A DNA stretch of 64,000 nucleotides, taken from positions 759,126 through 823,125 of the forward strand of contig NZ_JAGYXY010000001.1 in assembly GCF_018362775.1 (NCBI RefSeq), in the 5' to 3' direction. The DNA is from Alistipes montrealensis (GTDB lineage Bacteria; Bacteroidota; Bacteroidia; Bacteroidales; Rikenellaceae). The position numbers and the translations under genes were made by a program. The notes beneath the pieces are model-generated. The model saw only the letters and a program-made list of their open reading frames with translations, was not told the DNA's origin and searched no databases. Of the stretch, positions 45,294 through 64,000 are shown piece by piece (position 1 is the stretch's first letter; every line of letters begins with the position of its first letter).

Positions 45294-45339
45294 ATCATTT
45301 TGTAACCCGATTGTGTTCCATCTTTGAAAAAATCTTTCA

Positions 45340-45347
45340 TATCTTTG
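45340..45347 (+). promoter_or_regulatory. -7 box of the sigma/FecR unit of locus 2
   Basis: TATCTTTG fits TAnnTTTG, 53 bases before the sigma gene ATG at 45401. No TTTG was found at the standard distance. Confidence 0.5.
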
Positions 45348-45400
45348 ATCACGGCCATCGACGGCTAAAACAGTACCGCAAACGACACAAACAGCGTACC

Positions 45401-46084: not shown

Positions 46085-47068
46085 ATGACCAAGTTAAACG
46101 AATATTTCGACAACGAACTCTCCGCACAGGAGCAGCTCGAAGTGCAGATGTGGCTCGCAGAGCACGGCGAAAACCCGGACCCGGAGACACAGTTGGCCGA
46201 ACTTTTCGACAGCCTGCACGTCGATGACGATACGGCAGCCCGTGCGGCTTTCGGACGCGTCGCCCACCGGCTGGGGATCGCCGGAGGGCAGAAGCCCGCA
46301 GCATCGCACCGCGCACGCATCGTTACATGGAGCCAGCGTATCGCCGCGGTGCTCGTCATTCCGCTGCTGTGCGCCGTTTGGCTGCTCTACACCGACCGCC
46401 AGCCCGGAGTCGAATGGCTCGAACAGCAGGTTCCCTGCGGCGAAACCGCCGAACTGGCGCTTCCCGACGGTACGCTCCTGCACCTGAACTCCGGCAGCCG
46501 CATCACCTACCCGTCGGCATTTACAGGCAAAGAGCGCCGCATCTTCGTCGAAGGCGAAATATTCGCCGACGTGGCGAAAAATCCCCGCAAGCCCTTCATC
46601 ATCCAATCGGGCGAAGTCGGCATCCGCGTCCTGGGGACCAAATTCAACTTCAAATCCTATGCGAACACCGATTGCGTCGAGGTGTTGCTGGTAGAAGGGT
46701 CCGTCCAGTTCGACATCAACACCAAAGCGCGCAAGCAGCAGTTGGTGATGAAACCGGGCGACATGGTGCAGTACGACCGCACCTCGGGCGACATCGACCT
46801 TACATCGTTCCGCCCCGGCTACTTCAAGTCCTTCGCCGAAAACAGGGCCATCCACTTCTTCAACCTGCGCATGCGCGACATTGCGGCCGACCTCGAACGC
46901 CTGTTCGGCACGCAGATCGTCATTCTCGATGAAACACTTGCCCAGGCGCGCTATTTCGCCTATTTCACCAACAACGAAAATCTGGACCAGATACTATCCG
47001 CTATCAATTCCAATCATAAGATGCAAGTCCTGCGTCGCGACGGAGTCATCTACCTCTCGTCAAACTGA
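46085..47068 (+). CDS. FecR-family anti-sigma factor of SusCD locus 2
   Basis: A 327-residue protein. A short cytoplasmic region (NEYFDNELSAQEQLEVQMWL) binds sigma. One membrane segment lies near residues 84-103 (RIAAVLVIPLLCAVWLLYTD). The FecR domain follows (VPCGETAELALPDGTLLHLN, GEIFADVAKNPRKPFII, VLGTKFNFKSY), and a DUF4974-like end (FFNLRMRDIAADLERLFG). It relays ligand status from the STN domain of the following receptor to the sigma factor just upstream. The 171-base gap to susC shows no gene or clear signal. Confidence 0.95.
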   Translation: MTKLNEYFDNELSAQEQLEVQMWLAEHGENPDPETQLAELFDSLHVDDDTAARAAFGRVAHRLGIAGGQKPAASHRARIVTWSQRIAAVLVIPLLCAVWLLYTDRQPGVEWLEQQVPCGETAELALPDGTLLHLNSGSRITYPSAFTGKERRIFVEGEIFADVAKNPRKPFIIQSGEVGIRVLGTKFNFKSYANTDCVEVLLVEGSVQFDINTKARKQQLVMKPGDMVQYDRTSGDIDLTSFRPGYFKSFAENRAIHFFNLRMRDIAADLERLFGTQIVILDETLAQARYFAYFTNNENLDQILSAINSNHKMQVLRRDGVIYLSSN

Positions 47069-50200: not shown

Positions 50201-50809
50201 GACAACGTCATCTCCGAAGGTTCGGGCACGGTGGACGATCCGGGCGACAAGCGCATCATCGGCAACTCGCTGCCGCGTTACAGCTACTCGTTCCGCCTGG
50301 GCTTCAACTGGATGGGCTTCGACGTGTCGGCCTTCTTCCAGGGCATCGGACGCCGCGACTGGTATCCGGCAGCCGGACAGGCATCCTACGACTTCTGGGG
50401 CCCCTACGCCTTCCCGCCCACCTCGTTCATCCACAAGGATTTCTATTCGAACTGCTGGTCGGAAGACAACCGCAACGCCTACTTCCCCCGTCCGCGTGGT
50501 TACAACGCCTATTCGGGCGGTTCGCTGGGTGAGAAAAACGACCGCTACATCCAGAATCTCGCCTACCTGCGCCTGAAAAACCTCACGATCGGTTACACCG
50601 TGCCGCAGAAACTCACGCGCAAAATCGGCATCGACCGCGCCCGTGTCTACTTCTCGGGCGAGAACCTCTGCTACTGGTCGCCGCTGAAACGATACAACAA
50701 GACCATCGACCCCGAACTGGCAGGATCGTCGAGCACCAACCAAAAGGATTCGGGAACGGGCTATGCCTACCCCAGGACCCTCTCGGTAGGCGTAGACATC
50801 AACTTCTAA
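47240..50809 (+). CDS. SusC/RagA-family TonB-dependent receptor with STN domain
   Basis: A 1189-residue outer-membrane transporter. A signal peptide ends near ALAQ. The STN domain is at residues 34-112 (INLELKNVTVQEAVATLNRT), followed by a carboxypeptidase-like domain (LHGRVTDVKGQPIIAATVAV), the TonB-box region DEVVVVGYGTQRR, and the plug with NIRGSVSLNTGSPLVLADG and SVLKDASSCAIYG. The barrel ends in YPRTLSVGVDINF. The calcium-like loop FADLDGDNVISEGSG carries an extra acidic insertion compared with the receptor at 15028. It signals to FecR and imports a large ligand with the SusD encoded 19 bases downstream. Confidence 0.96.
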   Translation: MGNDYNRRGTRFARLLYLVILCMLLSPAAALAQEKGINLELKNVTVQEAVATLNRTENYSIIISSDEVDLGKRISVSAKNATIREVLDQVFAGQNVTCTIDGRRISVTKKQPAAPAKTAAAANTLHGRVTDVKGQPIIAATVAVEGTSKGTLTGIDGDFELKDVKFPAKINVSYLGYISQTIEIKAGGGNAPLEIVLKESDNLMDEVVVVGYGTQRRANLSGAVATISGKDLNARPVVSAANALQGADPSVNITFGTGSPESAYSINIRGSVSLNTGSPLVLADGVEVSLSQINPNDIESVSVLKDASSCAIYGAKASAGVVLITTKAGKKGERARVSYNGRFGWAKNTTSTDFITTGYDHVRIVNQFMNDSSDGTMNIFRYTEENGGLQKLYDRRNDRTEHPDRPWVEVGDDGKYYYYGNFDWYGYFYNRVRTQQEHNLSLSGGTDKVTYYASGRIYQQYGMFNINKDKYTDYAFRTKVSAQMTPWLKYSNNISFDTSGYKYGGHSDYEGTINALQSNICAAFVPFNPDGTIVQYVNQLGKNSPIGAGRGGQMSADRSKNSKENRYLTLSNQFDITILKKLVVTAAYDYRQRDRLYKYRNNTFEYSRQQGVMETFTSGSVENSYREVHYGYKGHNVNIYGTYENTWGGHHFKATAGGQYEDYRSTSLDVKQTGLSSDNIDSFTVATGPITLSQSISAYRTLGFFGRVNYDYDGKYIFEASARGDGSSRFEPDHRWGFFPSASAAWRISEESFFEPVRDVMNNLKLRLSVGSLGNQQVANYAYIEQISTDNQMSYTFDGLEKGYYANVSDPLSSGLTWETVTTYDVGLDVGLLNGRLNLTGDYYIRDTKDMLTTSLTLPDVFGAKTPKANCANLRTKGWEITLGWQDEFQLAGSAFSYNVSASIGDYITKITKYNNPDRLISDHYVGKALGEIWGYHVDGLFKTDREAAEYQATIDDKAVNNRVYQCKGPAGNRLRAGDVRFADLDGDNVISEGSGTVDDPGDKRIIGNSLPRYSYSFRLGFNWMGFDVSAFFQGIGRRDWYPAAGQASYDFWGPYAFPPTSFIHKDFYSNCWSEDNRNAYFPRPRGYNAYSGGSLGEKNDRYIQNLAYLRLKNLTIGYTVPQKLTRKIGIDRARVYFSGENLCYWSPLKRYNKTIDPELAGSSSTNQKDSGTGYAYPRTLSVGVDINF

Positions 50810-50828: not shown

Positions 50829-52583
50829 ATGAAAACACTGTACAAAATACTAGCGACGATGCTGCTGGGAGCGGCATGCGCCGGCTGCGATTTGACCCTC
50901 ATCCCCGAAGATACGGTCACCCCGCAGACCTTCTTCAAGTCCGAAGTAGACCTACGCCTGTGGACCAACCAGTTCTACACGATGCTCGACTCGCCCGACA
51001 GCGCCGCCGGACTCAATGCCGACGACATGGTGGACAAGAGCATGGGCGACGTGATTTCGGGAACCCGCATGGCCTCCGACGAGTCCGGCTGGACCTGGAC
51101 CGCCCTGCGCAAGGTCAACTATTACCTGCAAAACTCGCACAACTGCACCGACGAGGCGGCCCGCACGAAATACGACGGTGTGGCCTACTTCTTCCGCGCC
51201 TACTTCTACTACGAGAAAGTGCGGCGTTACGGCGACGTACCCTGGTACGACAAAGTGATCGGCTCCGAGGAGGAGGACCTGCTGAAAAAGCCCCGCGAGG
51301 ACCGCGGAATCATCATGGACCATGTGATGTCGGACCTCGACAACGCCATCGCCATGCTGCCGCGAGACAAGGAGGTGGCACGCGTGACCCGCTGGTCGGC
51401 GCTGGCCCTCAAGTCCCGGGCGGCGCTTTACGAAGGCACATGGCGCAAATACCGCAACCTGCCCGACGCCGAGAAATACCTCGAACAGGCGGCCGACGCC
51501 GCAGCGACCTTCATCGCCGAGAGCGGTTATTCGATCTACAAAGAGGGCACGGAACCTTATCGCGACCTTTTCTGCAGCGACAACGCCAAGTCGTCCGAGG
51601 TCATCCTGGCTCGCCTCTACAACTTCGAAGGGCTGAACCTCGCGCATAGCCTGCAGTTCAACATCCGCAACGGCGCGCAGGGCTTCACCCGCCGCTTCAT
51701 GAACCATTACCTGATGGCCGACGGCTCGCGCTTCACCGAAAAACAGGGATATGAAACGATGTTCTACACCGAAGAGACCGAAGGGCGCGATCCGCGTATG
51801 GTGCAGACCGTGCTCTGCCCGGGCTATGTAGCCAAAGGCGAAAGTTCGGCCACGCCCAACGACATGACGGCGATGACGGGCTACGAGCCGATCAAGTTCG
51901 TATCGACGGCGGCCCACAGCGGCGCTTCGAAAGGCACGTCCGACTGGGCGCTGTTCCGCACGGCGGAGGTTTACCTCAACTACGCCGAAGCCAAAGCCGA
52001 ACTGGGCACGCTGACGCAGGACGACCTGACCATCTCGATCGACAAAATCCGCGACCGCATCGGAATGGACGGACTCGACATGGCGGCAGCCAACGCCGAT
52101 CCCGATCCGTTCCTCCTGGCCTGCTACCCCAAGGTCACCAAAAGCGCCAACACGGGCGTGATCCTCGAAATCCGCCGGGAACGCACCGTCGAAATGGTCA
52201 TGGAAGGCCAGCGCATGTGGGACATGTTCCGCTGGAAAGAAGGTGCGCAGATGGTCAACGAAACGACACCCTACTACGGCATCTACTTCCCCGGCCCGGG
52301 CCTTTACGACATGGACGGCGACGGCAAGAACGATCTGGAACTCTACGCCACACAGCAGACCAGCGTACCGGCCGACGGACTGACGGTGCTGAAGATCGGA
52401 TCGGACATCGTCCTTTCCGACGCAGCTAACAACCGCGGTTACGTCGTAGCCTGGAGCGCCCTGAAATACACCTGGACCGAGGAACGCGACTATCTGTGGC
52501 CGATTCCGGCCGACCAGCGCGTACTGACGGGCGGCCTGCTGACCCAGAACCCCGGATGGACCGACAGCACCAATTTCGACTGA
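50829..52583 (+). CDS. SusD/RagB-family surface lipoprotein of locus 2
   Basis: A 584-residue lipoprotein (GAACAGC, then DLTLIPEDTVTPQTFF). TPR-like helices include YDGVAYFFRAYFYYEKVRRY (near 117) and RWSALALKSRAALYEGTWRK (near 189). The C-terminal part has LEIRRERTVEMVMEGQRMWD and ends LWPIPADQRVLTGGLLTQNPGW, the SusD signature. It binds ligand on the SusC receptor. It is followed after 26 bases by the DUF4988/GLUG lipoproteins, which are likely its working partners at the cell surface. Confidence 0.95.
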   Translation: MKTLYKILATMLLGAACAGCDLTLIPEDTVTPQTFFKSEVDLRLWTNQFYTMLDSPDSAAGLNADDMVDKSMGDVISGTRMASDESGWTWTALRKVNYYLQNSHNCTDEAARTKYDGVAYFFRAYFYYEKVRRYGDVPWYDKVIGSEEEDLLKKPREDRGIIMDHVMSDLDNAIAMLPRDKEVARVTRWSALALKSRAALYEGTWRKYRNLPDAEKYLEQAADAAATFIAESGYSIYKEGTEPYRDLFCSDNAKSSEVILARLYNFEGLNLAHSLQFNIRNGAQGFTRRFMNHYLMADGSRFTEKQGYETMFYTEETEGRDPRMVQTVLCPGYVAKGESSATPNDMTAMTGYEPIKFVSTAAHSGASKGTSDWALFRTAEVYLNYAEAKAELGTLTQDDLTISIDKIRDRIGMDGLDMAAANADPDPFLLACYPKVTKSANTGVILEIRRERTVEMVMEGQRMWDMFRWKEGAQMVNETTPYYGIYFPGPGLYDMDGDGKNDLELYATQQTSVPADGLTVLKIGSDIVLSDAANNRGYVVAWSALKYTWTEERDYLWPIPADQRVLTGGLLTQNPGWTDSTNFD

Positions 52584-52609: not shown

Positions 52610-55600
52610 ATGGCAATGAAACGAACCATGATAACAACGCTTCTGGCATCGGTCCTCCTCTTCGCGGGCGGATGCAGCGACAATTTCGACGACTCCGCCC
52701 TGTGGAAAGGCGTCGACGAGATCTACAACCAACTCACCGAGCTCGAAAAGCAGACCGACGAAATAAACCGGCAGATCCAACTGCTTTCGGCAGTCGTCAA
52801 CGGCGGGGTCGTCACCTCGATCACGCAGGACGCCGAAGGCAACAACGTCGTGCGGTTCAAGGGCCCGGACAACGTCGAGCACAGCGTCACCGTCGCGACG
52901 AAGGACGACGTGACGACCGCACCGATCCTCGGCACGAAGGAAGAAGGCGGCGTACTCTACTGGACGACCACCGCCGGCGGCAAGACCGACTTTCTGAAAG
53001 ATACCGACGGGGCGAAAATCCCCGTCGCCGGACGTACGCCCGAAGTGGCCGTCGACAAGGAGGGCTACTGGACCGTCAACGGCAAACGCCTGACCGACGC
53101 AGCGGGCAATCCGCTGAAGGCCGAAGGCAAGGAGACATCGCTCATCACGGGCGTCACGCGCGATGCTAACGGCAACGCAGTCTTCACGCTGGGCGACGGC
53201 ACGACGGTATCGGCCCCGGTTTTCGACGCCTTCAATATCGTTTTCAAGGTCGGCGACACCGTCCTCGGTGACGAATACGTGGTCGAGGACACCTCGCAGC
53301 CGCTCACGATCGGCTACGAACTTACGGGCGAGAAAGCCGGCGAGACCATCCTGAAGATCATGCGCGCCGAAAAGCTCACGGCCGTGGCCGACACCGCTGC
53401 CGGAACCATCGCCGTCACCTTCGGCAATGCGTTCGAGGAGGGCAGCTTCACCGTGATGCTCTGCGACACGGAGGAGAACGTCCTGATCCGCGTCGTGCGC
53501 CTCGCAGCCAAAAGCGCCAAACCCGAATACTACGGCATCAAGACCGCCGAAGACCTCCGCAAATTCGCCGAGGCCGTCAACTCCTCGCGCAGCTACGACC
53601 GTTACCGCGACGAAAGCGGCGACGTAGTGCTGCTGAACGATGTCGACATGGCCGGCACGACGGAGTGGACGCCGATCGGCACGGCCGAGAATCCCTTTAC
53701 GGGCATATTCAACGGCAAGAATTTCGCGATCAAAAACATAAGCTGGACGGCCGACGCCGCAAAATCGACCGCACACGGACTGTTCGGCGTGCTGGAAAAG
53801 GCGACCGTCAAAAACCTCACGGTAGGCAGTACGGGCGACAAGATAACGGTAACAGGAACCGCCGGGGCCGGGACGGCCATAGCGGGCGTGGCGGCATTCG
53901 CCACCGAATCGGTTATCGAAAGCGTAACCAACAACGTTTCGATCTCGTTCGAGGCCGAAGACCCTGCCGGAACGCTCGTCATGCTTGCAGGCATCGCCGG
54001 GCAAATGTCCGGGACGACCATCGGCGGTACGTCCGCCGCAGTGAAATGCGCCAACAACGGCGACATCACCACGGGTCCCATCGCCAACACCGGAAACGGC
54101 GGCACAGGCATGCAGGTGGGAGGCATCTGCGCCTACATCAAGTCTGCCGAGAACAACCTCATCGGCTACTGCACCAACAACGGACGCGTGAACGCGCCTT
54201 CGGGACGCGGGGGCGGCCTGGCGGGAACCTTCGAGAAGGGAACCATCGCCAACTCGCTGAACAACGGACTCATCGAAGACGACGCTGCCGGGCAGTACGC
54301 CGGACAGAAAAACCAATACGGCATCAAGCGCATGGGCGGCCTGGTCGGCGGTTCGACTTCGACTGGCTGCGTCATCGAGAACTGTAACAACCTCGGCAAC
54401 GTAATCACCCACCTGGGATGCCGCACAGGCGGTTTCTCGGGCCATAACCTCGGCACGATCCAGAACTGCAAGAACACCGGGGCCATCATCGGCAACGTGA
54501 CCGTCGACGGCGCGAACTACCACGGTCCCGGCTGGGCCTGCGGCTACAACCAGAGTGCTTCGCTCATCAAAGGGTGCATCGGAAACGGCTTCGTCGGCGA
54601 CTACGACACCTATAAGGACGCTCCGAAGACAGCTCCGGCGGCGATGCACGCCACAGCCGTCTGCCACAAGCAGTCGAACTACAACACCGAGGAAAATACC
54701 GTGGACTGGTCGCTTCCGGCCTACTACGACTGGGAACTCAAACAGACGATCCAGCTCCATCCTGGCGTGAAATACACCTACTACGAGTTCACCAACCTGC
54801 CGCGCAAGATGCACGTGCTGGAACTCGACCTGACGAACGACGCCGTGGAGATCGCAACCTCGATTTCCAACGACCTCGTGCCCAACCCCAACGGCAACAA
54901 CAACAGCAACAACGGCAAGAACATCCGCGAGACCCTCTCGGAGAACTGCACCCGCAAGCGCGCCGAAGGGCAGGAGATCATCGCCGGCATCAACACCGGG
55001 TTCTTCAATTCGCACGACGGATTCCCGCGCGGCCTGCACATCGAGGACGGCCGCCCCGATTTCGTGAATAACAAGACCGTGCGCACGTCGCTGACCAACC
55101 ACCAGAACTGCTTCACCTTCTTCAAAGACCGTACGGTAAGCTGCGGCAAGAAGGTCTTCACGGGCAAGATCGAGGTCGACGGTGTCGAGTACGAATACCA
55201 CTCGATCAACGACACGATCCTGCGCCGGGGCAACGTATCGCAGGAGGCCAACCTCTATACGGCGCGCTACAAGAAGACGCCGCACCCCGGTACTCCCTCG
55301 CTGACCAACACGCTGCTCAAAAAAGCGCTCTACGTCGTGGCGAAGAACACCTCGGGCAACCCCATGACGGTCAACGACGGCTGGTTCGAAGCCACCGTGA
55401 CCCAGATCGCCGACGGACGCACGACGGAACTCGCCGAAGCGCCCTACCTCACGACCCTCGACCAGTGGGCCGTGCAGCTCACGGGAGCCGCCGCCGAAGC
55501 CTTCGCCGGAAAACTCTCCGTAGGCTCGACGCTCCGCATCCGCGCCGACGTGGCGGTGGACGGCGTTTCGACCCCCATCCTCGCGCAGAATTCGACGATG

Positions 55601-55930
55601 TACCACCTCCTGGACAACGGCGTGGATAAAAACCTCGCCTCGTCGGTTTACGATCCGATGACCTACGTGGGCGTCGACCAGCCCGGAACGAAAGTCTACT
55701 TCTTCGTCATCGACGGCCGCCAGAGTTGGGTTTCGATGGGCGTGAAGTTCTACGAAATGGTCCGCATCGCCCAGAAGTTCGGCTGCTGGAACGTAACCCG
55801 TTTCGACGGCGGAGGTTCGACGACCATGTGGCTCTACACCGACGGCGAGGGCAAGGTGGTCAACAAACCTTCCGACTCGAAAGGCGAGCGCAGTTGCATG
55901 AACTACATGCACGTGCGGATCAAAAAGTAA
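52610..55930 (+). CDS. DUF4988-GLUG lipoprotein with C-terminal phosphodiester glycosidase (NAGPA) domain
   Basis: An 1106-residue lipoprotein (LLFAGGC, then SDNFDDSALW, an acidic surface tag). Domain order: a DUF4988 head (residues 25-190) with the heptad helix IYNQLTELEKQTDEINRQIQ and beta part EGYWTVNGKRL; a beta module; GLUG-type repeats (about 320-690: TEWTPIG, FTGIFNGKNFAIKNI, HGLFGVLEKATVKNL, RMGGLVGG); then an NAGPA domain (about 720-1106). The NAGPA part has INTGFFNSHDGFPRG (near 795), FFVIDGRQSWVSMG (near 1030) and RFDGGGSTTMWL (near 1065). In the human uncovering enzyme this domain removes GlcNAc from a GlcNAc-phosphate-mannose diester. Here it should cleave a sugar-phosphodiester at the cell surface. 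A start two codons later (52616) is equally good. Confidence 0.85.
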   Translation: MAMKRTMITTLLASVLLFAGGCSDNFDDSALWKGVDEIYNQLTELEKQTDEINRQIQLLSAVVNGGVVTSITQDAEGNNVVRFKGPDNVEHSVTVATKDDVTTAPILGTKEEGGVLYWTTTAGGKTDFLKDTDGAKIPVAGRTPEVAVDKEGYWTVNGKRLTDAAGNPLKAEGKETSLITGVTRDANGNAVFTLGDGTTVSAPVFDAFNIVFKVGDTVLGDEYVVEDTSQPLTIGYELTGEKAGETILKIMRAEKLTAVADTAAGTIAVTFGNAFEEGSFTVMLCDTEENVLIRVVRLAAKSAKPEYYGIKTAEDLRKFAEAVNSSRSYDRYRDESGDVVLLNDVDMAGTTEWTPIGTAENPFTGIFNGKNFAIKNISWTADAAKSTAHGLFGVLEKATVKNLTVGSTGDKITVTGTAGAGTAIAGVAAFATESVIESVTNNVSISFEAEDPAGTLVMLAGIAGQMSGTTIGGTSAAVKCANNGDITTGPIANTGNGGTGMQVGGICAYIKSAENNLIGYCTNNGRVNAPSGRGGGLAGTFEKGTIANSLNNGLIEDDAAGQYAGQKNQYGIKRMGGLVGGSTSTGCVIENCNNLGNVITHLGCRTGGFSGHNLGTIQNCKNTGAIIGNVTVDGANYHGPGWACGYNQSASLIKGCIGNGFVGDYDTYKDAPKTAPAAMHATAVCHKQSNYNTEENTVDWSLPAYYDWELKQTIQLHPGVKYTYYEFTNLPRKMHVLELDLTNDAVEIATSISNDLVPNPNGNNNSNNGKNIRETLSENCTRKRAEGQEIIAGINTGFFNSHDGFPRGLHIEDGRPDFVNNKTVRTSLTNHQNCFTFFKDRTVSCGKKVFTGKIEVDGVEYEYHSINDTILRRGNVSQEANLYTARYKKTPHPGTPSLTNTLLKKALYVVAKNTSGNPMTVNDGWFEATVTQIADGRTTELAEAPYLTTLDQWAVQLTGAAAEAFAGKLSVGSTLRIRADVAVDGVSTPILAQNSTMYHLLDNGVDKNLASSVYDPMTYVGVDQPGTKVYFFVIDGRQSWVSMGVKFYEMVRIAQKFGCWNVTRFDGGGSTTMWLYTDGEGKVVNKPSDSKGERSCMNYMHVRIKK

Positions 55931-55949
55931 CCCTTAAACAGAGAGAACA

Positions 55950-58406
55950 ATGAGAAATATCCTGAACATCATAGTGCTTATGGCCGGCTTCGTCCTCCTC
56001 TGGGGGTGCGACGAATACGACGACGGGCAACTGCGCAAGAACATCGACGCCATCGAGGGAGAACTCACGGCGGCCGAACAGCGCGTCGCGGAACTCAACG
56101 ACCAGATGAGCTCGCTCACAGCGCTCGTCAACAGCAGCTTCATCTCCTACCTCAAGCAGGACGACAAAGGCAACTACGTCGTTTGCTACCGCGACCACGG
56201 CGGCGAGACCAAGACCATTACCCTCGCCACGCAGGGCGACGTAGTGACCGCCCCGATCGTCGGGGCCGGGGAATTCACCGACGGGAAACTCTACTGGCGC
56301 ACGACCGCCGACAACGGCGAAACGTACCAGTGGCTGCTCGATGGGTCGGGCGAGATGATGCCCGTAGGCGGCGTACCTCCCACGATGGGCATCGACGCCG
56401 AAGGATTCTGGACGGTCAACGGCGAGCGTTTCGTCGGCAAAGACGGCAAACCCGTACTGGCCAACGACACGAGCAACACGCTGTTCCAGTCGGTCGAGAC
56501 CGACGAGGAGAGCGGCATGGTCCGTTTCACGCTCGCCGACGGCAGCACGTTCGAAATTCCGGTTTTCGAAGCGCTGAACATCAGCTTCGACGCCGCCCCC
56601 GTAACGGCCATCGCCGACCGGGCAACGCCGGCCTACATCAAATACGCCATAGCGGGCAGCGAAGCCGAGAACGCCCATATCGACTACTTCACGGCTTACA
56701 ACGTAACGGTGGAGATCGACAAATACACCCGTACGATCTCCGTCCGGCTGGACGAAGACGCCGAAGAGGGCAACACGGTGATCCTGGTTACGGCCGGGGG
56801 CAACACCGTACTTAAACCCCTCTTTTTCACCTATGGAACGGCCCAGATCGAGCCCCCGACGTGGGACCCGCAGTTCGGGACCGGAACGGAAGTCGCCCTC
56901 GAAGGCGAATTTACCGAATTCGATATCAAAGTGTCGGCCAACATCGAATACGACGTTGCAATCGCCGAGGAGTGCCAATCGTGGCTCAAACCCACCCCCA
57001 CGACGCGCGCCCCGATGATTACGACGACGCATTCGTTTGTTGCCGACTATTATGAAAACGACAGCGGCGCCGACCGCAAGGGTTCGATCACCTTCTCGAA
57101 CCGCCCCTACGGCGTAACCGTCACGCTCGCCGTGCGCCAGTCGCCCGTCATTCCCGACGTGCCGACCGACCCGGGTATCTCCACAGGCGCCGACCTGGTG
57201 GCCTTCGCCAAGGCGGTCAACGCAGGCGGCAGCACGAGCCGCTGGCAGAACGCCTCGGGCGAAGTGGTGCTGCTGAACGATGTCGACCTGACGGGACTCA
57301 CCGAGTGGACTCCGATCGGATCGGGCAAAGCCACCGGAACGCCCTCCTACAACACGCTGGTCAACCCCTTCACGGGTGTATTCAACGGCCAGGGCTTCAC
57401 GATCAAGGGTATCCAGTGGACCTTCGACGCCGAAGACGAAACGACCCACCTGCACGGCCTGTTCGGCGCGCTGAAGGGCGCCACGGTCAAGAACCTCAAA
57501 CTGGGCGCCGCAGGCGACCAGATCTCCGTCACGGGCGCAAGTTCCAACGTCGTGGCCGTGGGTGCGCTGGCAGGTTACGCCGAGGGTTCGACGATCTCGA
57601 ACGTCACCAACAACGTTTCGGTGATCCTCACGGGCGACAATCCCGATGCGACGCTGATGATGCTCGCCGGCATCGCCGCCTGTGCGAAGTCGACGACTAT
57701 CGGCGGTGAAACGAAGGACCTCGCCGTCGTCAACAACGGCGACGTGAAGACCGGCCGCATCTCCAACACGGCCAACGGCGGTACGGGCATGAACGTAGGC
57801 GGCATCTGCGCCTTCACGCTCGGCGGAGGCATCAAGCTCGACTACTGCACCAACAACGGCGCAGTGAGCGCCCCGACAGGACGCGGCGGCGGTCTGGTAG
57901 GCACACTGGGCGGCCCGACGAGCGAAGAGAACGGCACTGCGGTCAGCAACTCGACCAACAACGGCACGGTGCAGGACGACGCCGTGGGCCAGTATGGCGG
58001 CAGCCGGGATTACTACAACAACAAGCGCATGGGCGGCCTGGTGGGCGGTACGGTGACCAACAACAACATCCGCATCGAATACTGCACCAACAACGGCAAT
58101 GTCTTCTCGCAACTGGGATGCCGCACGGGCGGTTTCGTGGGCCACAACCAAGCCACGATCGTAGGCTGCGTGAACAAGGGAATCATCCTGGCCAACATCA
58201 CCCTCGACGCCGGCGCTCCGCAGCACGGTCCCGGCTGGGCCTGCGGTTACAGCGCCAAGGGACTCGTCACGCAGTGCGCCAAGGGCGGCCGCGTCGGCGA
58301 ATGGGACACCTGGAAGGACAACCCGAGCGGCGCTCCCGAAGCCACGAACGACAACGCCCTGTGTTACCGCAACAGCGAATATTTCGATCCGTCGCAGAAC
58401 TACTAA
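55950..58406 (+). CDS. DUF4988-BACON-GLUG lipoprotein without an enzyme domain
   Basis: An 818-residue lipoprotein (VLLWGC, then DEYDDGQLRKNID). It has a DUF4988 head with the coiled coil IDAIEGELTAAEQRVAELND and the EGFWTVNGERF strand; a BACON-like domain near residues 310-400 (EFDIKVSANIEYDVAI, KGSITFSNRPYGVTVTLAV); then GLUG repeats from about 410 to the end (TEWTPIG, FTGVFNGQGFTIKGIQW, HGLFGALKGATVKNL). The GLUG part is paralogous to that of the gene at 52610, including HGPGWACGY, but stops just where that protein's glycosidase would begin. It is therefore probably a binding or scaffold member of the surface assembly. It lies 19 bases after its neighbour. Confidence 0.82.
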   Translation: MRNILNIIVLMAGFVLLWGCDEYDDGQLRKNIDAIEGELTAAEQRVAELNDQMSSLTALVNSSFISYLKQDDKGNYVVCYRDHGGETKTITLATQGDVVTAPIVGAGEFTDGKLYWRTTADNGETYQWLLDGSGEMMPVGGVPPTMGIDAEGFWTVNGERFVGKDGKPVLANDTSNTLFQSVETDEESGMVRFTLADGSTFEIPVFEALNISFDAAPVTAIADRATPAYIKYAIAGSEAENAHIDYFTAYNVTVEIDKYTRTISVRLDEDAEEGNTVILVTAGGNTVLKPLFFTYGTAQIEPPTWDPQFGTGTEVALEGEFTEFDIKVSANIEYDVAIAEECQSWLKPTPTTRAPMITTTHSFVADYYENDSGADRKGSITFSNRPYGVTVTLAVRQSPVIPDVPTDPGISTGADLVAFAKAVNAGGSTSRWQNASGEVVLLNDVDLTGLTEWTPIGSGKATGTPSYNTLVNPFTGVFNGQGFTIKGIQWTFDAEDETTHLHGLFGALKGATVKNLKLGAAGDQISVTGASSNVVAVGALAGYAEGSTISNVTNNVSVILTGDNPDATLMMLAGIAACAKSTTIGGETKDLAVVNNGDVKTGRISNTANGGTGMNVGGICAFTLGGGIKLDYCTNNGAVSAPTGRGGGLVGTLGGPTSEENGTAVSNSTNNGTVQDDAVGQYGGSRDYYNNKRMGGLVGGTVTNNNIRIEYCTNNGNVFSQLGCRTGGFVGHNQATIVGCVNKGIILANITLDAGAPQHGPGWACGYSAKGLVTQCAKGGRVGEWDTWKDNPSGAPEATNDNALCYRNSEYFDPSQNY

Positions 58407-58424
58407 CGCTAAACAAAGACATCC

Positions 58425-61400
58425 ATGAAACGATTCCTATATTTCCTGCTCCTGACGGCGATCGCCTTCGCCGCAGGATGCAGCGACTACGACGATTCGC
58501 AGCTCAGCGGCCGTATCGACGGCTTCAAGGAGCGCATCGCGAAGCTCCAGGGCCGCATCGCCTCGCTCAACAGCCAACTGGCGGACCTGAGCGAACTGAC
58601 CTCCGGCAACGTCATCACTGCGATGGCACAGGATTCCGAAGGCAACTACGTCATTACCTACAAGGACAACAAGAACGAAGAGAAGAGCGTCGTGCTGGCC
58701 ACGACCGACCAAATGCTCAACGTTCCGCTGCTGGGCGTCGAACTCGACGCGGAGAGCGGCCTCTATTACTGGACCGTAACCGTCGACGGCGAGACCTCGC
58801 CGCTGTCCGGCAACGACGGGGAGCGGGTTCCCGTGAGCGGCCACACCCCCGTGGTGTCGGTCGACGCACAGGGCTTCTGGACGGTCAACGGCGAACGGCT
58901 GAACGACGCCTCGGGACGCCCGATCGAAGCCAACGACGGCGAAAGCTGCCTGTTCAAAAGCATCGAACGCGACGCCAACGGCAACCTGTCGCTGACGCTC
59001 GGCAACGGGGAAGTCGTAACGCTGCCCATCCAACAGGTGCTGAACCTCACGCTCTCGACGGCGATCAACACCACGGTGGTCGATATTTCAGCTCCGATGA
59101 CGGTCAAATATACGCTTCACGGCGAACACGCCACCGATGCGCTGGTCGGCATCGCGGCGGCCGAGGGTCTCGAAGCTGCGCTCGACAAGCAGGAACAGCA
59201 GATTGCAGTCACCTTCCCGGCGGGCTTCCGCGAGGGACACCTGATCGTGGTGGCCTACGACATGCTGGAGCACACGGTGCTGCGTCCGGTCTTCTTCACC
59301 AAGGCGACGAGCGACCGCATCGAAATCGGCACGGCCGCCGAACTGGTGCAGTTCGCCGCCGATGTCAACGCCGGCACGGGCGCACAACTGATGACCGCCG
59401 TGCTGACCGGCGACATCGACATGACGGGCATCGCGTCGTGGACGCCGATCGGCAACGGCACGTTCGCCGCCACGACCGCCGTATCCACGCCCTCCGGGGC
59501 CGTCTTCGAAGGCACGTTCGACGGACAGGGCCATGCGCTGCGCAACTTCAGGATGGCCGCAACGCTCACGGGCGACAACCAGACCTACGGCCTGTTCGGC
59601 GTACTGAAAGGCGCAACGGTCCGCAACCTCGTACTGGGCGCCGAAACAGGCGACACGGGGTCGTTCACGGTTTCGGGCAACGGCGTCACCTCGACAGGCG
59701 TCATCGCCGGGGCCAGCATCGAATCGACGATCGAAGACTGCAGCAGTTACCTTCCGATGGAGTGCCTGGGCAACGGAACTTCGGGCAAACTGATGACCAT
59801 GGGTCTCGTGGGCTTCGTCTACGGAGCGGGCACGAGCGAGGAGACCGTCACACAGCTCATCGGGCTGAAGAACTACGGCACGCTCAAGGCCGTGCCGGGA
59901 GCCGCCAACGCCAACGGGTTCACTTCGACGCAGGTGGGCTGTATCGCAGGACTTTCGAACACCTCGCGCACGTCGACCTTCCAAAACAAGATCACGCGCT
60001 GCGTGAACTACGGCGACATGGAGACCTCGACGGGCCGCGCCTCGGGCATCATCGCCGCGGCAAACACCTTTACGGTGGTTTCCGAATGCGACAACCACGG
60101 CGACATGCTTAATACCTATGCCGAATCGGGCGGCGGACGCCTGGGCAACATCACCTGCATCCTCGGCACGGCGTCGAAAGTCGACGGCTGTACGAACTAC
60201 GGCGATGTCGTGGCCACGAACGCCAAGACCCACGCCGGAGGACTGGTCTGCCTGCTCAACGCAGCCGACGTGGAGTTCAACGACAACGCCAACTACGGCC
60301 GGGTAATCACCGACCTTGCGACCTACCGCGGAACGCTGGTGGCCAACATCAACACGTTCGCCAAGATGGACAACAACACAGCAGGCGGCGGTGTAGGATC
60401 GTACAACGGCGGAAACTACGTGATGGCCGACATCGACGAGACGAACTTCATGGACTACATCGGCCTGATCAAGACCGGCAATGAATCGAAGGTGACCAAC
60501 ACCAAATACGGTGGCGACATCTCCTCGGCCAAGGGCATCCGCACGGCCGACGACCTTGTGGCATTCGCCGCGGCGGTCAATGCCGGGACCTCGATTGAAG
60601 AATGGCAGAACGAGGACGGCGAGGTGTGCCTGCTGACCAACATCGACATGGCGGCGGTCACGGAGTGGACCCCGATCGGCAAGGCGGCCTTCACGTGGGG
60701 CAGCAACAAGCTCGCCCTCACGGGAACGCCCTTCGCCGGGCACTTCAACGGACAGGGCTACCGCATCCGCAACCTGAAAATGGTAGCCGCAGGCAGCGAG
60801 GAAGGACAGGCATACGGATTCTTCGGGGCGCTGGCCCCGGGGGCCGTGGTCGAGAACTTTTCGTTCGACTCGGGGTGTTCGCTGACCGTAACGGCCTCGG
60901 CGCGCTGCGCGGCGGGCCTGGTGGCCGGTGTCGTTTACGATGCTACGGTGCGCGACATCACCGGCTCGGCCCCGATGCTCTTCCAGGGCGCCGCCGGAGC
61001 GAGCGTTCCGATGTACATGGGCCTCATAGGCTTCGCCTTCGCCGAAACGGCGGGCGTCGTGATCGACAGCGTGAACAACAACGGCGAAATCACGGCGGAG
61101 AACCGGACTCCGAACCTCGAGGCCGGCGGCAACGCCTGCCATGCCGCGGGCATCGTCGCCTTCGCCACCAACGAGGCGTCGTCGCAGCAGAAGGTCATCA
61201 TCTCCGACTGCATCAACTACGGCGCGATGACCTCGGCGCTGGCCCGGACTTCGGGCATCGTCGCTGCGGCCAACCGCTACACCCAACTGACCAACTGCGT
61301 CAACCACGGCGATCAACTGAACACCTTCCCCAAGCAGGGCGGAGGCCGCCAGGGTCAGATCACCTGCATCACGGGCACGGGATCGTCGATGATCGGCTGC

Positions 61401-62666
61401 ACGAACTACGGCGACCTCACCTCGACCACCGGAGGCCGCACGGCAGGCATCGTCTCGCTGTCGAACACCGCGACGTTCGAGAACTGCGCCAACTACGGCA
61501 CGATCCTCAGCGACGACGCCAACCGCGGCGTATTCTGGGCCTACAACAACGGCGCAGCAGCATGGACCAACTGCACCGCAGGCGGCAAGGTGGGCACATA
61601 CAACAACGGTACGCCCGTCTTCGATTCCTATTCCGAAGCCGACCAGGCCAACTACCTGGGCAAGCAGGGCGCGACCAAATCGACGCTGACGAACATCGTC
61701 TACCAACTCGGCAACTCGGGCGGCGGCGATCCGGGCGGCGAAGCCCAACTGCGCATCCTCTTCATCGGCAACAGTTTCACCAAGGACGCCGTGGAGCACC
61801 TGCCGGGCCTGCTGAAAGCCGCAGGCATCGACAAGGTGAAAATGACGCACATGTACTACGGGGGCCGCACAGTTCCCGAGTACAACAACGGATTCGCCAC
61901 CGTGAGCGACTACCGCTGCTATGAGTGCGCCCCGGGAGCCGCCGGATGGACCGAACTGATGAACAAGACGATCAAGGAGGTCGCCGCATCGGACGAGTGG
62001 GACATCGTGACCATCCAGGAGCACACGGGCAAGGTCAACGCCTGGTCGTGGACCCCGACCGAAAAGGAGGCTTTGCAGGGACTGATCAACAACGTGAAAT
62101 CGACGCAGACCGGAGCCATGCCCAAATTCTGCTACATCCTGTCGCAGGCCTACGGCGACCCCGCAATCGTCAGTTATTCACAGCAGACGGTGATCGTCAA
62201 CAATTTCGCCTCGTCGCAGGCCGACATGTACGCCGCAATCGTCGCACAGGGCAAAAAGGTGATGGCCGAAGTCACGTTCGACGATCTGATCGCCACCGGG
62301 ACCGTCCTGCAAAACCTGCGTTCGTCGAAGCTCCAGAACGCAATGGACATGACCCGCGACGGGTATCACATGGACTACGGCATCGCACGCTACGCCGCTT
62401 CGTGCGCCGTTTTCGAAAAACTGATCTCCCCGGCGTTCGACGGCGTGACGCTCGACGGCAACCCGTTCCGCTACACGATTTCGAACACCACTGCGGGCAG
62501 TTACTCGACACCCGTCACCGACGCCAACGCCCCGCTCGCCCTGCAAGCGGCGCGCTACGCCCTCGCAACGCCCTATGCCGTGACTGACATGTCGGACATC
62601 GACCAGGAGAAGCCCGACAACGGCATCGAGGACACGGAATTCGACGACGACAAGAATAAAGAATAA
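58425..62666 (+). CDS. DUF4988 lipoprotein with duplicated GLUG module and C-terminal DUF4886/SGNH hydrolase
   Basis: A 1413-residue lipoprotein (AFAAGC, then SDYDDSQLSGRID). The DUF4988 head (residues 20-200) has the coiled coil IDGFKERIAKLQGRIASLNS. Two diverged GLUG modules cover about 298-698 and 703-1097. The C-terminal domain, from residue 1108, is DUF4886/SGNH-like: block I LRILFIGNSFTKDAVEHL with the likely nucleophile Ser, then WDIVTIQEHTG, and the closing block RDGYHMDYGIARYAA with the Asp-x2-His pair near 1312. This suggests an esterase acting on acyl or similar ester groups of a glycan. The tail is acidic (DTEFDDDKNKE). It follows after 18 bases and precedes the next gene by 12. 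Confidence 0.82.
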   Translation: MKRFLYFLLLTAIAFAAGCSDYDDSQLSGRIDGFKERIAKLQGRIASLNSQLADLSELTSGNVITAMAQDSEGNYVITYKDNKNEEKSVVLATTDQMLNVPLLGVELDAESGLYYWTVTVDGETSPLSGNDGERVPVSGHTPVVSVDAQGFWTVNGERLNDASGRPIEANDGESCLFKSIERDANGNLSLTLGNGEVVTLPIQQVLNLTLSTAINTTVVDISAPMTVKYTLHGEHATDALVGIAAAEGLEAALDKQEQQIAVTFPAGFREGHLIVVAYDMLEHTVLRPVFFTKATSDRIEIGTAAELVQFAADVNAGTGAQLMTAVLTGDIDMTGIASWTPIGNGTFAATTAVSTPSGAVFEGTFDGQGHALRNFRMAATLTGDNQTYGLFGVLKGATVRNLVLGAETGDTGSFTVSGNGVTSTGVIAGASIESTIEDCSSYLPMECLGNGTSGKLMTMGLVGFVYGAGTSEETVTQLIGLKNYGTLKAVPGAANANGFTSTQVGCIAGLSNTSRTSTFQNKITRCVNYGDMETSTGRASGIIAAANTFTVVSECDNHGDMLNTYAESGGGRLGNITCILGTASKVDGCTNYGDVVATNAKTHAGGLVCLLNAADVEFNDNANYGRVITDLATYRGTLVANINTFAKMDNNTAGGGVGSYNGGNYVMADIDETNFMDYIGLIKTGNESKVTNTKYGGDISSAKGIRTADDLVAFAAAVNAGTSIEEWQNEDGEVCLLTNIDMAAVTEWTPIGKAAFTWGSNKLALTGTPFAGHFNGQGYRIRNLKMVAAGSEEGQAYGFFGALAPGAVVENFSFDSGCSLTVTASARCAAGLVAGVVYDATVRDITGSAPMLFQGAAGASVPMYMGLIGFAFAETAGVVIDSVNNNGEITAENRTPNLEAGGNACHAAGIVAFATNEASSQQKVIISDCINYGAMTSALARTSGIVAAANRYTQLTNCVNHGDQLNTFPKQGGGRQGQITCITGTGSSMIGCTNYGDLTSTTGGRTAGIVSLSNTATFENCANYGTILSDDANRGVFWAYNNGAAAWTNCTAGGKVGTYNNGTPVFDSYSEADQANYLGKQGATKSTLTNIVYQLGNSGGGDPGGEAQLRILFIGNSFTKDAVEHLPGLLKAAGIDKVKMTHMYYGGRTVPEYNNGFATVSDYRCYECAPGAAGWTELMNKTIKEVAASDEWDIVTIQEHTGKVNAWSWTPTEKEALQGLINNVKSTQTGAMPKFCYILSQAYGDPAIVSYSQQTVIVNNFASSQADMYAAIVAQGKKVMAEVTFDDLIATGTVLQNLRSSKLQNAMDMTRDGYHMDYGIARYAASCAVFEKLISPAFDGVTLDGNPFRYTISNTTAGSYSTPVTDANAPLALQAARYALATPYAVTDMSDIDQEKPDNGIEDTEFDDDKNKE
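59317..61715 (+). repeat. Tandem duplication of a roughly 1.2-kb GLUG module inside one gene
   Basis: Copy 1 (59317-60520) and copy 2 (60533-61715) run in the same order: AAELVQFAADVNAG / ADDLVAFAAAVNAG, WTPIGNGTF / WTPIGKAAF, TYGLFGVLKGATVRNL / AYGFFGALAPGAVVEN, CVNYGDMETSTGRASGIIA / CINYGAMTSALARTSGIVA, and GGGRLGNITCI / GGGRQGQITCI. The first GLUG block of the gene at 62679 is closest to copy 2. Confidence 0.85.
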
Positions 62667-62678
62667 ACCCCGACCGAA

Positions 62679-64000
62679 ATGAAAAAACTACATATCCTGC
62701 TCTTCGGCGCGGCGCTGCTCTTCAGCAGTTGCACCCGGGAGCCAGAAATCACCGAACCGGCCCCGCCGCACGCCTCGTCGGGACTCGTCATCAAAGCCGC
62801 CTGCACCCCGGCGACCCGCACCGACATCAACGAGGGTAAAAGCACCTGGGAAGCCGGCGACCGCATTACGGTCGTCTACGACGGTGCGGCCTACGCCTAC
62901 ACGGCCGCCGAAACCGGCGTCACGACCACCTTCACCAGCGACGCAGGCATCGCCTCGTACGATGCGTCGAAACCGCTGACGGCCTACTACCCCGCCACAA
63001 CCGCCGAAGGCATCGTCAGCGTGGAGGCCGGGCGCACGATCGCCTTCCAGGGCACGGAGCAGGCCAACACGGCCTGCGCACCGCTGGTCGGCACGCCGCT
63101 CGAAAACAATCTTTCGGAAGGGGCGCTGCACGTCTCATTCCGCAACATCTTCTCGGTCATCGAACTGCGCATCGACGCCGGCGACCTGGAAAGCCCGGCA
63201 CGGTCGATTACGGTGGAACCCGCCTCGGAGGAGGGATTCGAAGGTTACCTGACTTTCACCGGCACGGTCGACCCCGCAACGCTCGCCCTCACCCCGGCCC
63301 CCGACGGAACCGGCACGAAACTGACGCTGGATTTTCCCGAGGGAGCCGACCTGACCCGTCCTCAGACGATCAAATTCCCCGTCGGGCGTTTCACCTCGCC
63401 GGCGGGCCTGAAACTGACGCTTTCGACAGCCGACGGCAAAAGCTACACGAAGAACGTCTACAAATCGGGCGTACGCACCTATAACGAAACCGACGGCACG
63501 TTCGCAGCCCGCCACCTGGCCAAGGCGCTTTACGCCTTCGCGCCTCCGGGAGGCATCTGGACGGCTGACGACCTCGTCGAATTCGCCGCAGCGGTCAACG
63601 CAGGCGAAACCCTCGCCCCGTGGCAGAACGACGAAGGCGTCGTGGTGCTGCTCGACGATATCGACATGACAGGCACGACGGCATGGACCCCGATCGGCGA
63701 TGCGACCTTCGCACTGGCGAGCAACGCCATCTCGATCAGTTCGGGACGCCCCTTCACGGGCTTTTTCGACGGACAGGACCATGCGATCTGCAACTTCAAA
63801 ATGGTGTGCGACAACGCCACGGCCAACCGTGCGTGGGGGCTGTTCGGCGCACTGGGTCCCGGAGCCGTCGTCGAGAACCTGATCTTCGACGCCTCCTGCT
63901 CGCTGGAGGTCAAGGCTTCGAAGGGTACGGACTGCGGCATCCTGGCCGGACTGGTCTACGACGCTACCGTGCGCAACGTCACCAATAACGCCCCGATGTC
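62679..64000 (+). CDS. Fimbrillin-like/GLUG lipoprotein, 3' end outside window
   Basis: The frame from the ATG at 62679 stays open to the end of the window (440 codons seen). It is a lipoprotein: MKKLHILLFGAALLFSSC, then TREPEITEPAPP. Residues 35-290 have the fimbrillin pattern (TPATRTDINEGKSTWEAGDR, TAYYPATTAEG, LHVSFRNIFSVIELRI, IKFPVGRFTS) and no DUF4988 head. From about residue 295 a GLUG block begins (ADDLVEFAAAVNAGE, WTPIGDATF, FTGFFDGQDHAICNFKM, WGLFGALGPGAVVENL), most like copy 2 of the previous gene. It may end in another enzyme domain beyond the window. It is 12 bases after the SGNH-bearing gene and surely in the same unit. Confidence 0.8.
   Translation, partial: MKKLHILLFGAALLFSSCTREPEITEPAPPHASSGLVIKAACTPATRTDINEGKSTWEAGDRITVVYDGAAYAYTAAETGVTTTFTSDAGIASYDASKPLTAYYPATTAEGIVSVEAGRTIAFQGTEQANTACAPLVGTPLENNLSEGALHVSFRNIFSVIELRIDAGDLESPARSITVEPASEEGFEGYLTFTGTVDPATLALTPAPDGTGTKLTLDFPEGADLTRPQTIKFPVGRFTSPAGLKLTLSTADGKSYTKNVYKSGVRTYNETDGTFAARHLAKALYAFAPPGGIWTADDLVEFAAAVNAGETLAPWQNDEGVVVLLDDIDMTGTTAWTPIGDATFALASNAISISSGRPFTGFFDGQDHAICNFKMVCDNATANRAWGLFGALGPGAVVENLIFDASCSLEVKASKGTDCGILAGLVYDATVRNVTNNAPM

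Follow-up and report, generated by a model that had tools for sequence, protein, structure and literature searches.

Closest described systems

In the GAG locus of Bacteroides thetaiotaomicron the lipoprotein genes adjoin SusCD, and BT3328 (PL29), BT3329 and BT3330 were co-immunoprecipitated at the cell surface, while the purified proteins showed no interaction in native PAGE (PMC6994673). Low conservation and mixed knock-out results were given for BT3328-BT3330 in the accessible text of two other papers, in which the word 'coiled' did not occur (PMC12877422, PMC9745678). The gene order of the GAG locus was kept in B. acidifaciens, where enzyme and binder (the BT3328-like and BT3329-like proteins) each carried a DUF4988 head and the BT3330-like protein had DUF5017 instead of DUF4988.

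SusCD also forms complexes with lipoproteins, named utilisomes, and those for levan and dextran were resolved by cryo-EM with four components; coil-based assembly was not mentioned in the available part of that paper, whose discussion left open mix-and-match assembly in complex loci (PMC7618045). In addition, the GH98 enzyme BACOVA_03433 of B. ovatus is a surface endo-acting enzyme according to PMC4491172. The entries 9h6f, 9h6g and 9h6h, which we infer to be BACOVA_03433 from the organism, the family and the E361 mutant, matched the DUF4988 head in sequence (9h6f, E 1.4e-17) and in fold (Z 12.7-13.1 over the three entries); the first 25 or so positions of the head profile, and with them most of the coil, are missing from the crystal construct.

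Organization of the SusCD locus

The window, a stretch of 64,000 nucleotides from Alistipes montrealensis, contained a SusCD locus followed by four lipoprotein genes, LP1 to LP4, all on the + strand. An ECF sigma factor (45311..45958, Pfam Sigma70_r4_2 1e-15), the probable regulator of the locus, and a FecR-type anti-sigma factor (46085..47068, Pfam FecR 1.7e-16 and FecR_C) preceded a SusC-type TonB-dependent transporter (47240..50809, NCBIfam TIGR04056 850 bits, cut-off 368) and a SusD-type lipoprotein (50829..52583, Pfam SusD_RagB 3.5e-43). The SusC and SusD genes were adjacent, as in a polysaccharide utilisation locus, and by Pfam prediction glycan-active surface enzymes (NAGPA, DUF4886) and a local regulator (ECF sigma/FecR) would be encoded together with them.

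Intergenic gaps from SusC to LP4 were 12-26 bp, and no terminator-like site was present on the + strand in the predicted-site list for the locus, terminator-like and promoter-like sites being no more frequent than in shuffles. Rfam gave no match at gathering thresholds in the window and in L006, the stretch in which LP4 is complete. A second SusCD locus of the same genome contained a DUF4886 lipoprotein and two NAGPA-like genes, and was without a DUF4988 match.

Domain composition of the lipoproteins

LP1 (52610..55930, 1106 aa), LP2 (55950..58406, 818 aa) and LP3 (58425..62666, 1413 aa) were built alike at the N-terminus: behind the lipobox Cys came an acidic stretch, then a heptad repeat of 34 residues, then DUF4988 (PF16378; 85, 78 and 76 bits, cut-off 30). 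The sequence-only reading had described three consecutive lipoproteins of this build with NAGPA, no enzyme and DUF4886 as their respective tails, and open reading frames and Pfam bore out both statements. The coil of LP1 (aa 31-64, 52700..52801) was located by heptad analysis and appeared as helix 7-41 in the AF2 model of the head (aa 31-203, 52700..53218, mean pLDDT 88.5); DUF4988 occupied 56031-56561 in LP2 and 58503-59027 in LP3.

A beta domain and a GLUG block separated the LP1 head from the C-terminal NAGPA domain (aa about 700-1106, 54707..55927), which was assigned by score (PF09992, 81.7 bits, cut-off 25) and by the fold of its model (Z 27.5 to 3ohg and 21.8 to guinea pig NAGPA), with DGGGST at aa 1066. 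It has the same fold as NAGPA/DUF2233 enzymes (3ohg; 6pku), from which LP1 differs in a long insertion, the fusion to a stalk and a beta-helix, and the SusCD gene context. For LP2, a Pfam scan (E up to 1) gave no enzyme domain and the PDB sequences gave no match; a BACON match (56958-57125) was weak, 21.3 bits against a cut-off of 25. LP3 ended in a DUF4886/SGNH domain (61752-62435; PF16227, 113 bits, cut-off 26.7; match to 4i8i at 6.5e-19).

The GLUG blocks of LP1 (aa 304-692, 53519..54685), LP2 (57162-58382), LP3 (59325-60494 and 60534-61703) and LP4 were mutually alike at 31-55% identity. GLUG repeats, which had been claimed for all of LP1-3, were upheld by this likeness and by a beta-helix model, whereas the Pfam cut-off of 20.5 was passed in LP2 only (29.3), with LP1 below it at 15.6 and LP3 not listed at E up to 1. 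The model of the LP1 block (m215af75336f2) was a beta-helix of the IgA1 protease type, as in IgA1 protease and BACOVA_03286 (Z 29.0 to 7uvk, 27.1 to 3n6z), and the LP2 block matched the M26 N-terminal region weakly (E 0.12). The catalytic domain of IgA1 protease was absent from the Pfam matches of LP1-4.

LP4 (62679..64000, on to L006:4015) ran past the window edge and was complete as L006:305-4015 (1236 aa), with an unclassified head, a GLUG block 49% identical to the second block of LP3, BACON (32.5 bits) and a DUF4886-like C-terminus. The latter scored 24.6 bits (G000), slightly below the cut-off of 26.7, and contained GNSF and DNKH, which we take to be catalytic motifs. Among orthologous tails, that of G570 reached 26.7 bits for DUF4886, that of G296 gave no DUF4886 match at E up to 0.1, and that of G572 was absent. 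The proposal that LP4 keeps the GLUG part was correct, while its supposed fimbrillin-like head found no counterpart: among seven orthologous heads no fimbrillin family of Pfam matched at E up to 5, the LP4 head had no match in the PDB by sequence, and LP4 gave no DUF4988 match. The sole Pfam matches of these seven heads, the best at E 0.0018, were to a carboxylase domain and to a lipoprotein-attachment site.

Conservation of the locus

An LP1-type gene was present in 10 of 180 genomes of the genus, own genome included. It was full-length in seven other genomes, split over two contigs in an eighth and a head-less NAGPA in a ninth, and its neighbours were conserved, so the observed arrangement is more than chance. 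SusD, the NAGPA lipoprotein LP1, LP2, LP3 and an S1/P1 nuclease were found at the locus in 9/9 genomes (own included), and SusC in eight of the nine, the contig of G320 starting inside SusD. The SusCD genes and the lipoprotein genes lay on different contigs in G586, and ran convergently in G570.

A GDPD gene was found at the locus in 7/9 genomes, two of these GDPDs being checked with Pfam. It was absent in the window's own genome, which had a 77% identical GDPD on a different contig, and in the stretch examined of G586. A GlpD-like gene adjoined the locus of G296. Across the family, 162 of the 250 genomes had S1/P1 matches, so S1/P1 alone is little informative on the substrate.

DUF4988 heads outside the locus

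DUF4988 heads occur widely in Bacteroidales, joined to tails that can be exchanged, and are also found on characterised surface enzymes, namely PL29 lyases of the BT3328 family and the GH98 xylanase of B. ovatus. Outside the locus the tails were DUF4955 (PL29-type), DUF4957, DUF5074, FGE-sulfatase-like, CotH, BspA-type LRR, peptidase M64 and DUF4465, besides GH98, and the idea of a common head with interchangeable C-terminal parts was thereby supported. Among the compared sequences, many of them short stretches, DUF4988 together with GLUG was confined to the locus and its orthologous loci, and the pair lacks support as a general scaffold. The profile of the BT3328 hyaluronan lyase family (NF058554) matched LP1-3 at 50-73 bits over the N-terminal 214-280 residues only; membership of that family requires a whole-protein score above 1100 bits and was rejected. 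A Pfam DUF4988 match above cut-off was also seen in Corynebacterium glutamicum, a control genome.

The earlier remark that no described system of this kind was known did not hold, since surface proteins of B. thetaiotaomicron co-precipitate and a system of this kind is thus already on record, as are utilisomes. The stalk-plus-enzyme design is known from the hyaluronan system. With the GAG locus the Alistipes locus shares lipoproteins beside SusCD and DUF4988 heads on enzyme and binder; with utilisomes, surface lipoproteins of the binder and enzyme kinds around a SusCD core; and with the B. ovatus GH98 endoxylanase, a DUF4988-type head on a surface enzyme. It differs from the GAG locus, whose tails are PL29 or none, without GLUG match, and whose substrates are GAGs, and from the endoxylanase in the tail. 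What is new is that the coils of LP1-3 are without the family-typical RhxxhE motif, and that the locus, with S1/P1 and in most relatives GDPD, seems to serve phosphate-linked polymers.

Proposed function and substrate

The main reading, to which we give a probability of about 0.55, is an ECF-sigma/FecR-controlled SusCD uptake locus in which LP1-3, on DUF4988 stalks, would present enzymes to a phosphodiester-linked glycopolymer. It is based on domain content, conservation of the locus, homology of the heads to the BT3328 family and GH98, and motif statistics. A lipid anchor with an acidic tag directs a lipoprotein to the cell surface, and LP1-3 would be placed there by theirs. The parallel coiled coil would join chains as an oligomer, most likely a trimer, and the beta head and IgA1-protease-like beta-helix could serve as rigid spacer or binder. 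The C-terminal enzymes would then meet the polymer before SusCD: by family, NAGPA would cleave sugar-1-phosphodiester and the SGNH/DUF4886 hydrolases would take off ester groups. The breakdown of phosphodiesters may be completed by the enzyme of the S1/P1 nuclease family, helped in most relatives by a glycerophosphodiester phosphodiesterase.

The S1/P1 (9/9) and GDPD (7/9) genes suggest phosphodiester-linked glycopolymers as food, perhaps teichoic acid. NAGPA-type enzymes hydrolyse phosphodiester-linked sugars generally (PMC12419801), the linkage unit of wall teichoic acid to murein is alpha-GlcNAc-1-phosphate (PMC7831098) and GlpQ is an exo-teichoicase (PMC7086022); wall teichoic acid would therefore fit chemically. 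The generality of NAGPA action favours another phosphodiester glycan, such as yeast phosphomannan, host phosphoglycans/GPI or a phosphate-bearing capsule of gut bacteria, which has almost an even chance of being the substrate. Teichoic-acid-specific genes (e.g. ribitol, D-alanine) were not noticed in the locus gene lists, a point for these other glycans, and neither was a mannosidase, a point against them, both from inspection of the lists. GDPD and the GlpD-like gene beside the G296 locus indicate glycerol phosphate, which argues against these other glycans. A limited literature search showed no report of a Bacteroidales SusCD locus for teichoic acid among the matches listed, and its best-ranked matches for NAGPA in Bacteroides were unrelated titles.

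Coiled coils and oligomeric state

The motif RhxxhE, R(g)-h(a)-x-x-h(d)-E(e), marks parallel trimeric coiled coils. It was found in 21 of 27 heads outside the locus (22/29 in a second set) and in 0/21 coils of the LP1-3 type, overall in 21/48 heads against four matches in 39,141 residues downstream of the coil. Both GAG-locus heads of B. acidifaciens retain it, unlike LP1-3. Collagen-like GXY runs were present in 16 of 54 DUF4988 heads and missing from LP1-3, and three of 50 aligned heads were without a proper coil. It is plausible from these motifs that DUF4988 coils oligomerise, although LP1-3 have neither mark of the other heads; with Leu at d and Ile/Val at a, dimers could also form. In G258, five DUF4988 genes stood in a row and RhxxhE was kept in two of three intact coils, so several heads in a row are not by themselves tied to loss of the motif.

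DUF4988 may also be an anchor or spacer only, each lipoprotein standing alone or homo-oligomeric without a common complex, a serious possibility although we lean against it. In the head tree LP1, LP2 and LP3 were each one clade and jointly one clade (99/97), so local duplication accounts for their likeness; relatives drop tails or GLUG blocks, and the negative native PAGE of the purified B. thetaiotaomicron proteins agrees. Charge gave evidence on both sides. As homotrimers the LP2 and LP3 coils scored <=0 in 15/15 heads, against >0 in 22/24 other heads, which opposes homo-oligomers, while a mixed LP1-3 trimer was mildly favoured but not significantly so (0.18 in G000, 0.24 in G572) against shuffles with g/e residues permuted within each coil. 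The hetero-minus-homo difference was 3 and 4 for the locus, and a difference of 2 was reached by none of 2024 triples of other heads, which mostly means that other heads favour homotrimers; the eight genomes compared are related and hence not independent. The co-immunoprecipitation of BT3328 with BT3329 and, in G556, the fusion of LP3 and the LP4 tail in a single reading frame also count against separate lipoproteins.

The stalks of the locus may be built for pairing with each other. We regard as unlikely the stronger proposal of an obligate heterotrimer of LP1, LP2 and LP3, in which complementary charges would have replaced the homotrimer motif after tandem duplication and one coil would show glycosidase, binder and esterase 1:1:1 before SusCD, as a mix-and-match utilisome for phosphodiester-linked wall polymers, e.g. 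teichoic acid. A cellulosome-like machine, with exchangeable enzymes docked on one shared scaffold protein, was suggested earlier and agrees with one N-terminal module common to several different tails, but it is highly improbable, as neither cohesin nor dockerin matched LP1-LP3 (E up to 1) or LP4 (E up to 0.1), and a separate scaffold is unnecessary where each of the lipoproteins is anchored by its own lipid and each of LP1-3 also brings its own stalk.

The DUF4988 coil offers a short handle on the mix-and-match question of utilisomes, most heads having the homotrimer motif and the heads of this locus being without it. Separately made homotrimers may not exchange, which could account for the interaction of BT3328 with BT3329 in cells and for its absence when the purified proteins are mixed. 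Should the proposed substrate prove correct, gut Bacteroidales would have in this locus a system for feeding on Gram-positive wall polymers.

Layout and domain content of the locus

In the window (G000:C5:759126-823125, G000 being the genome of this strain), an ECF sigma factor, a FecR-type anti-sigma factor, SusC, SusD and then four large lipoproteins (LP1, 52610-55930; LP2, 55950-58406; LP3, 58425-62666; LP4, from 62679) were encoded on the + strand starting at 45311, with intergenic gaps of 12-26 bp from SusC through LP4. LP4 extends beyond the window end and was complete in the overlapping stretch L006 (1236 aa), where an S1/P1 nuclease family protein followed 61 bp after it.

LP1 was composed of a coiled coil, DUF4988, a GLUG block and NAGPA, LP3 of a coil, DUF4988, two GLUG blocks and DUF4886, and LP4 of a different head, a GLUG block, BACON and a DUF4886-like part, all by Pfam together with block likeness; LP2 carried a coil, DUF4988, a weak BACON match and a GLUG block by Pfam. 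The shared GLUG part described in the sequence-only reading held in that alike blocks occurred in all four lipoproteins, while the Pfam GLUG motif exceeded its cut-off in LP2 only, the other blocks being placed by likeness. Identity between GLUG blocks was 55% for LP1-LP2, 49% for LP3b-LP4 and 31-45% for the remaining pairs, and that among the DUF4988 heads of LP1-3 was 36-39%.

Structure of the head and of LP1

A 276-residue model of the LP1 head (coiled coil plus DUF4988 beta part), built from an alignment of 50 heads, had a mean pLDDT of 88.5 and predicted a 35-residue helix with beta strands after it. Its fold matches in the PDB included three B. ovatus GH98 endoxylanase entries (Z 13.1, 12.9 and 12.7 over 147-150 residues), ranking ahead of the next row (Z 8.5), which matched a different part of the model, and a profile search agreed on the GH98 likeness of the DUF4988 head (E 1.4e-17). 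By the fold match (Z ~13) and the profile match, the structure of the DUF4988 head is thus already solved, as part of a surface enzyme. The GH98 crystal construct starts about 25 positions into the head profile, so most of the coil is missing from it. In a model of LP1 300-1106 from 16 sequences (pLDDT 81), residues ~4-361 of the model were predicted to resemble the beta-helix of IgA1 protease (Z 29.0 over 276 aligned residues) and BACOVA_03286 (Z 27.1), and the C-terminal part was predicted to adopt the NAGPA/DUF2233 fold (3ohg, Z 27.5, 255 aligned).

Coiled coil and charge pairing

Read in the register d-e-f-g-a-b-c, the coil had Leu mostly at d and Ile/Val mostly at a. The parallel-trimer motif RhxxhE (R at g, E at e) stood at one fixed place in 21 of the 48 heads ungapped there (2 of the 50, both from outside the locus, were dropped), being found in 21/27 heads outside the locus versus 0/21 of LP1-3 type. 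As background, the motif occurred 4 times across the 39,141 residues downstream of the coil in 54 collected proteins, and a second set gave 22 of 29 distinct heads, near-duplicates among them. Judged from the coil sequences, the motif is consistently absent from all three heads of the locus across its relatives, which was surprising. Collagen-like GXY runs of at least 3 triplets, which would be compatible with a trimer, lay within 16 of the 54 heads examined, none of them in the locus. In G000, the stretch L069:7358-10730 (contig C8) contained a divergent DUF4988 protein with a degenerate coil and, upstream of it, another S1/P1 nuclease (45% identical).

Homotrimer scores, taken as summed g-e' charges between coils, were 0 to 9 in 24 other heads (mean 4.9, 22 above 0), 0 to 3 in 6 LP1 heads, -3 to 0 in 8 LP2 heads and -6 to -3 in 7 LP3 heads. 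Where a genome had all three coils (8 genomes; G586 was left out, its LP2 coil not being detected), the ring LP1-LP3-LP2 scored +1 to +4 versus a mean homotrimer of -2 to 0, and the opposite ring -3 to +1; against within-coil shuffles, the preference for a mixed ring was not significant (0.18, 0.24). Coils joining the proteins had been envisaged from the start, and a mixed (heterotrimeric) stalk of LP1-3 may be put forward as a tentative proposal. The LP1, LP2 and LP3 heads formed three clades nested in one clade (99/97), therefore the duplications predate the species compared.

Spread of DUF4988 and its tails

DUF4988 matches occurred in 29 of the 295 Bacteroidales genomes (above the Pfam cut-off in 28) and, in a sample taken across the class, in 8 of 345 (above it in 6), own genome included in both, and in 81 of 158 genomes of the genus of G059, judged to be Bacteroides (75 over). 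By hand count, 54 reading frames exceeded the cut-off in the Bacteroidales set, and 16 of these were grouped in 6 neighbour clusters, the largest with five in a row (G258). The cut-off was also exceeded in the control genome Corynebacterium glutamicum, far from Bacteroidota.

Pfam scanning covered 30 DUF4988 proteins (6 being LP1-3 orthologues), 4 more and another 9 (one an LP3 orthologue). The tails outside the locus were DUF4955 (PL29-type), DUF4957, DUF5074, FGE-sulfatase-like, CotH, BACON, BspA-type LRR, peptidase M64, DUF4465 and Big_2, the last with Fib_succ_major alongside below cut-off; in several proteins no Pfam tail was found. Other C-terminal enzymes therefore do occur on DUF4988 proteins elsewhere, and the idea of exchangeable tails was borne out for DUF4988. 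It was not supported for DUF4988-GLUG as a general scaffold, as the two were seen together only in the locus and its orthologues, among compared loci many of which were ~3 kb stretches whose tails may be cut off. All 74 redundant frames with both came from the loci of nine genomes; 139 frames had DUF4988 only and 32 GLUG only, some of these being fragments of the locus itself. Two stretches (L216, L218) had DUF4988 heads on BspA-type LRR proteins, one also with peptidase M64, and both gave collagen-like matches, over the Pfam cut-off in L218 only.

Relatives of the locus

Of 180 genus genomes, 10 contained an LP1 relative, the window's own among them. In G571 this was a head-less NAGPA alone beside SusCD, and in all nine remaining genomes an S1/P1 nuclease gene was part of the locus: between SusD and LP1 (G296, G320, G572, G556), after GDPD (G596, G544), after LP4 (G000), on a different contig together with SusCD (G586) or with SusCD on the other strand (G570). 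GDPD followed LP4 or LP3 in 7 of the 9 loci, two of the genes being confirmed by Pfam (PF03009, 88 and 92 bits). It was not at the locus in G000, which had a 77% identical copy on another contig, and was not found within the stretch examined in G586. A GlpD-like gene adjoined the locus on the opposite strand in G296. Modules were gained or lost among the relatives: LP3 of G320 had a single GLUG block with no LP4 after it, and the DUF4886-like tail was missing from LP4 of G572.

A single frame of G556 (L144:7299-11621) joined LP3 to the C-terminal part of LP4 and had two DUF4886 stretches, a natural fusion linking both proteins. LP3 lay in two frames in G596 (L136:5567-9813) and G570 (L139:4588-8834), where either a genuine frameshift or an error of the assembly may be the cause. 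G000 also had a second small SusCD locus (L210, G000:C8:90000-109900), in which a DUF4886 lipoprotein was accompanied by a pair of NAGPA-like genes, one of them on the opposite strand; no DUF4988 match was found in it.

Precedents

The NCBIfam BT3328 hyaluronan-lyase family matched LP1-3 over their N-terminal 214-280 residues, at scores well under its cut-off, and a DUF4955-tailed G059 protein exceeded that cut-off. In B. acidifaciens, a sulfatase, SusC and SusD, all three assigned by eye, were followed directly by proteins of 359 aa (DUF5017), 658 aa (DUF4988) and 851 aa (DUF4988 + DUF4955), in the gene order described for BT3333-BT3328 of B. theta (PMC6994673). The likeness to the B. theta GAG locus rests on these genes and on published descriptions of the B. 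theta proteins. B. xylanisolvens and B. pyogenes had the DUF4988 pair without neighbouring SusCD. A BT3328-like pair also occurred in the window's genome (L068:8095-12967, G000:C5 ~524-529 kb), one protein being DUF4988-DUF4955 (858 aa) and the other, of 758 aa, having DUF4988 and a weak match to fn3, adjoining a sulfatase-like gene (by eye); both coils had RhxxhE.

For BT3328, BT3329 and BT3330 of B. theta, co-immunoprecipitation at the surface of the cell is reported, with only BT3329 in the precipitate of BT3330, though native PAGE of the purified proteins showed no interaction (PMC6994673); BT3329 is annotated as DUF4988 (PMC10434189). Utilisomes have also been described, their authors leaving open mix-and-match assembly in complex loci (PMC7618045). 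The sequence-only reading knew of no described system of this kind, but these surface proteins (PMC6994673) and utilisomes (PMC7618045) are precedents. The locus is a SusCD locus carrying DUF4988-stalk lipoproteins, a variant of a kind already described.

Possible substrate

NAGPA enzymes are reported to free phosphodiester-linked sugars (PMC12419801), wall teichoic acid to be attached to MurNAc via alpha-GlcNAc-1-phosphate (PMC7831098), and GlpQ, a glycerophosphodiesterase, to break down wall teichoic acid starting at the free end (PMC7086022). The apparent phosphodiester theme, read from the genes of the locus, was surprising; because of the NAGPA chemistry, the alpha-GlcNAc-1-phosphate linkage and the action of GlpQ, teichoic acid could be proposed as a candidate substrate.
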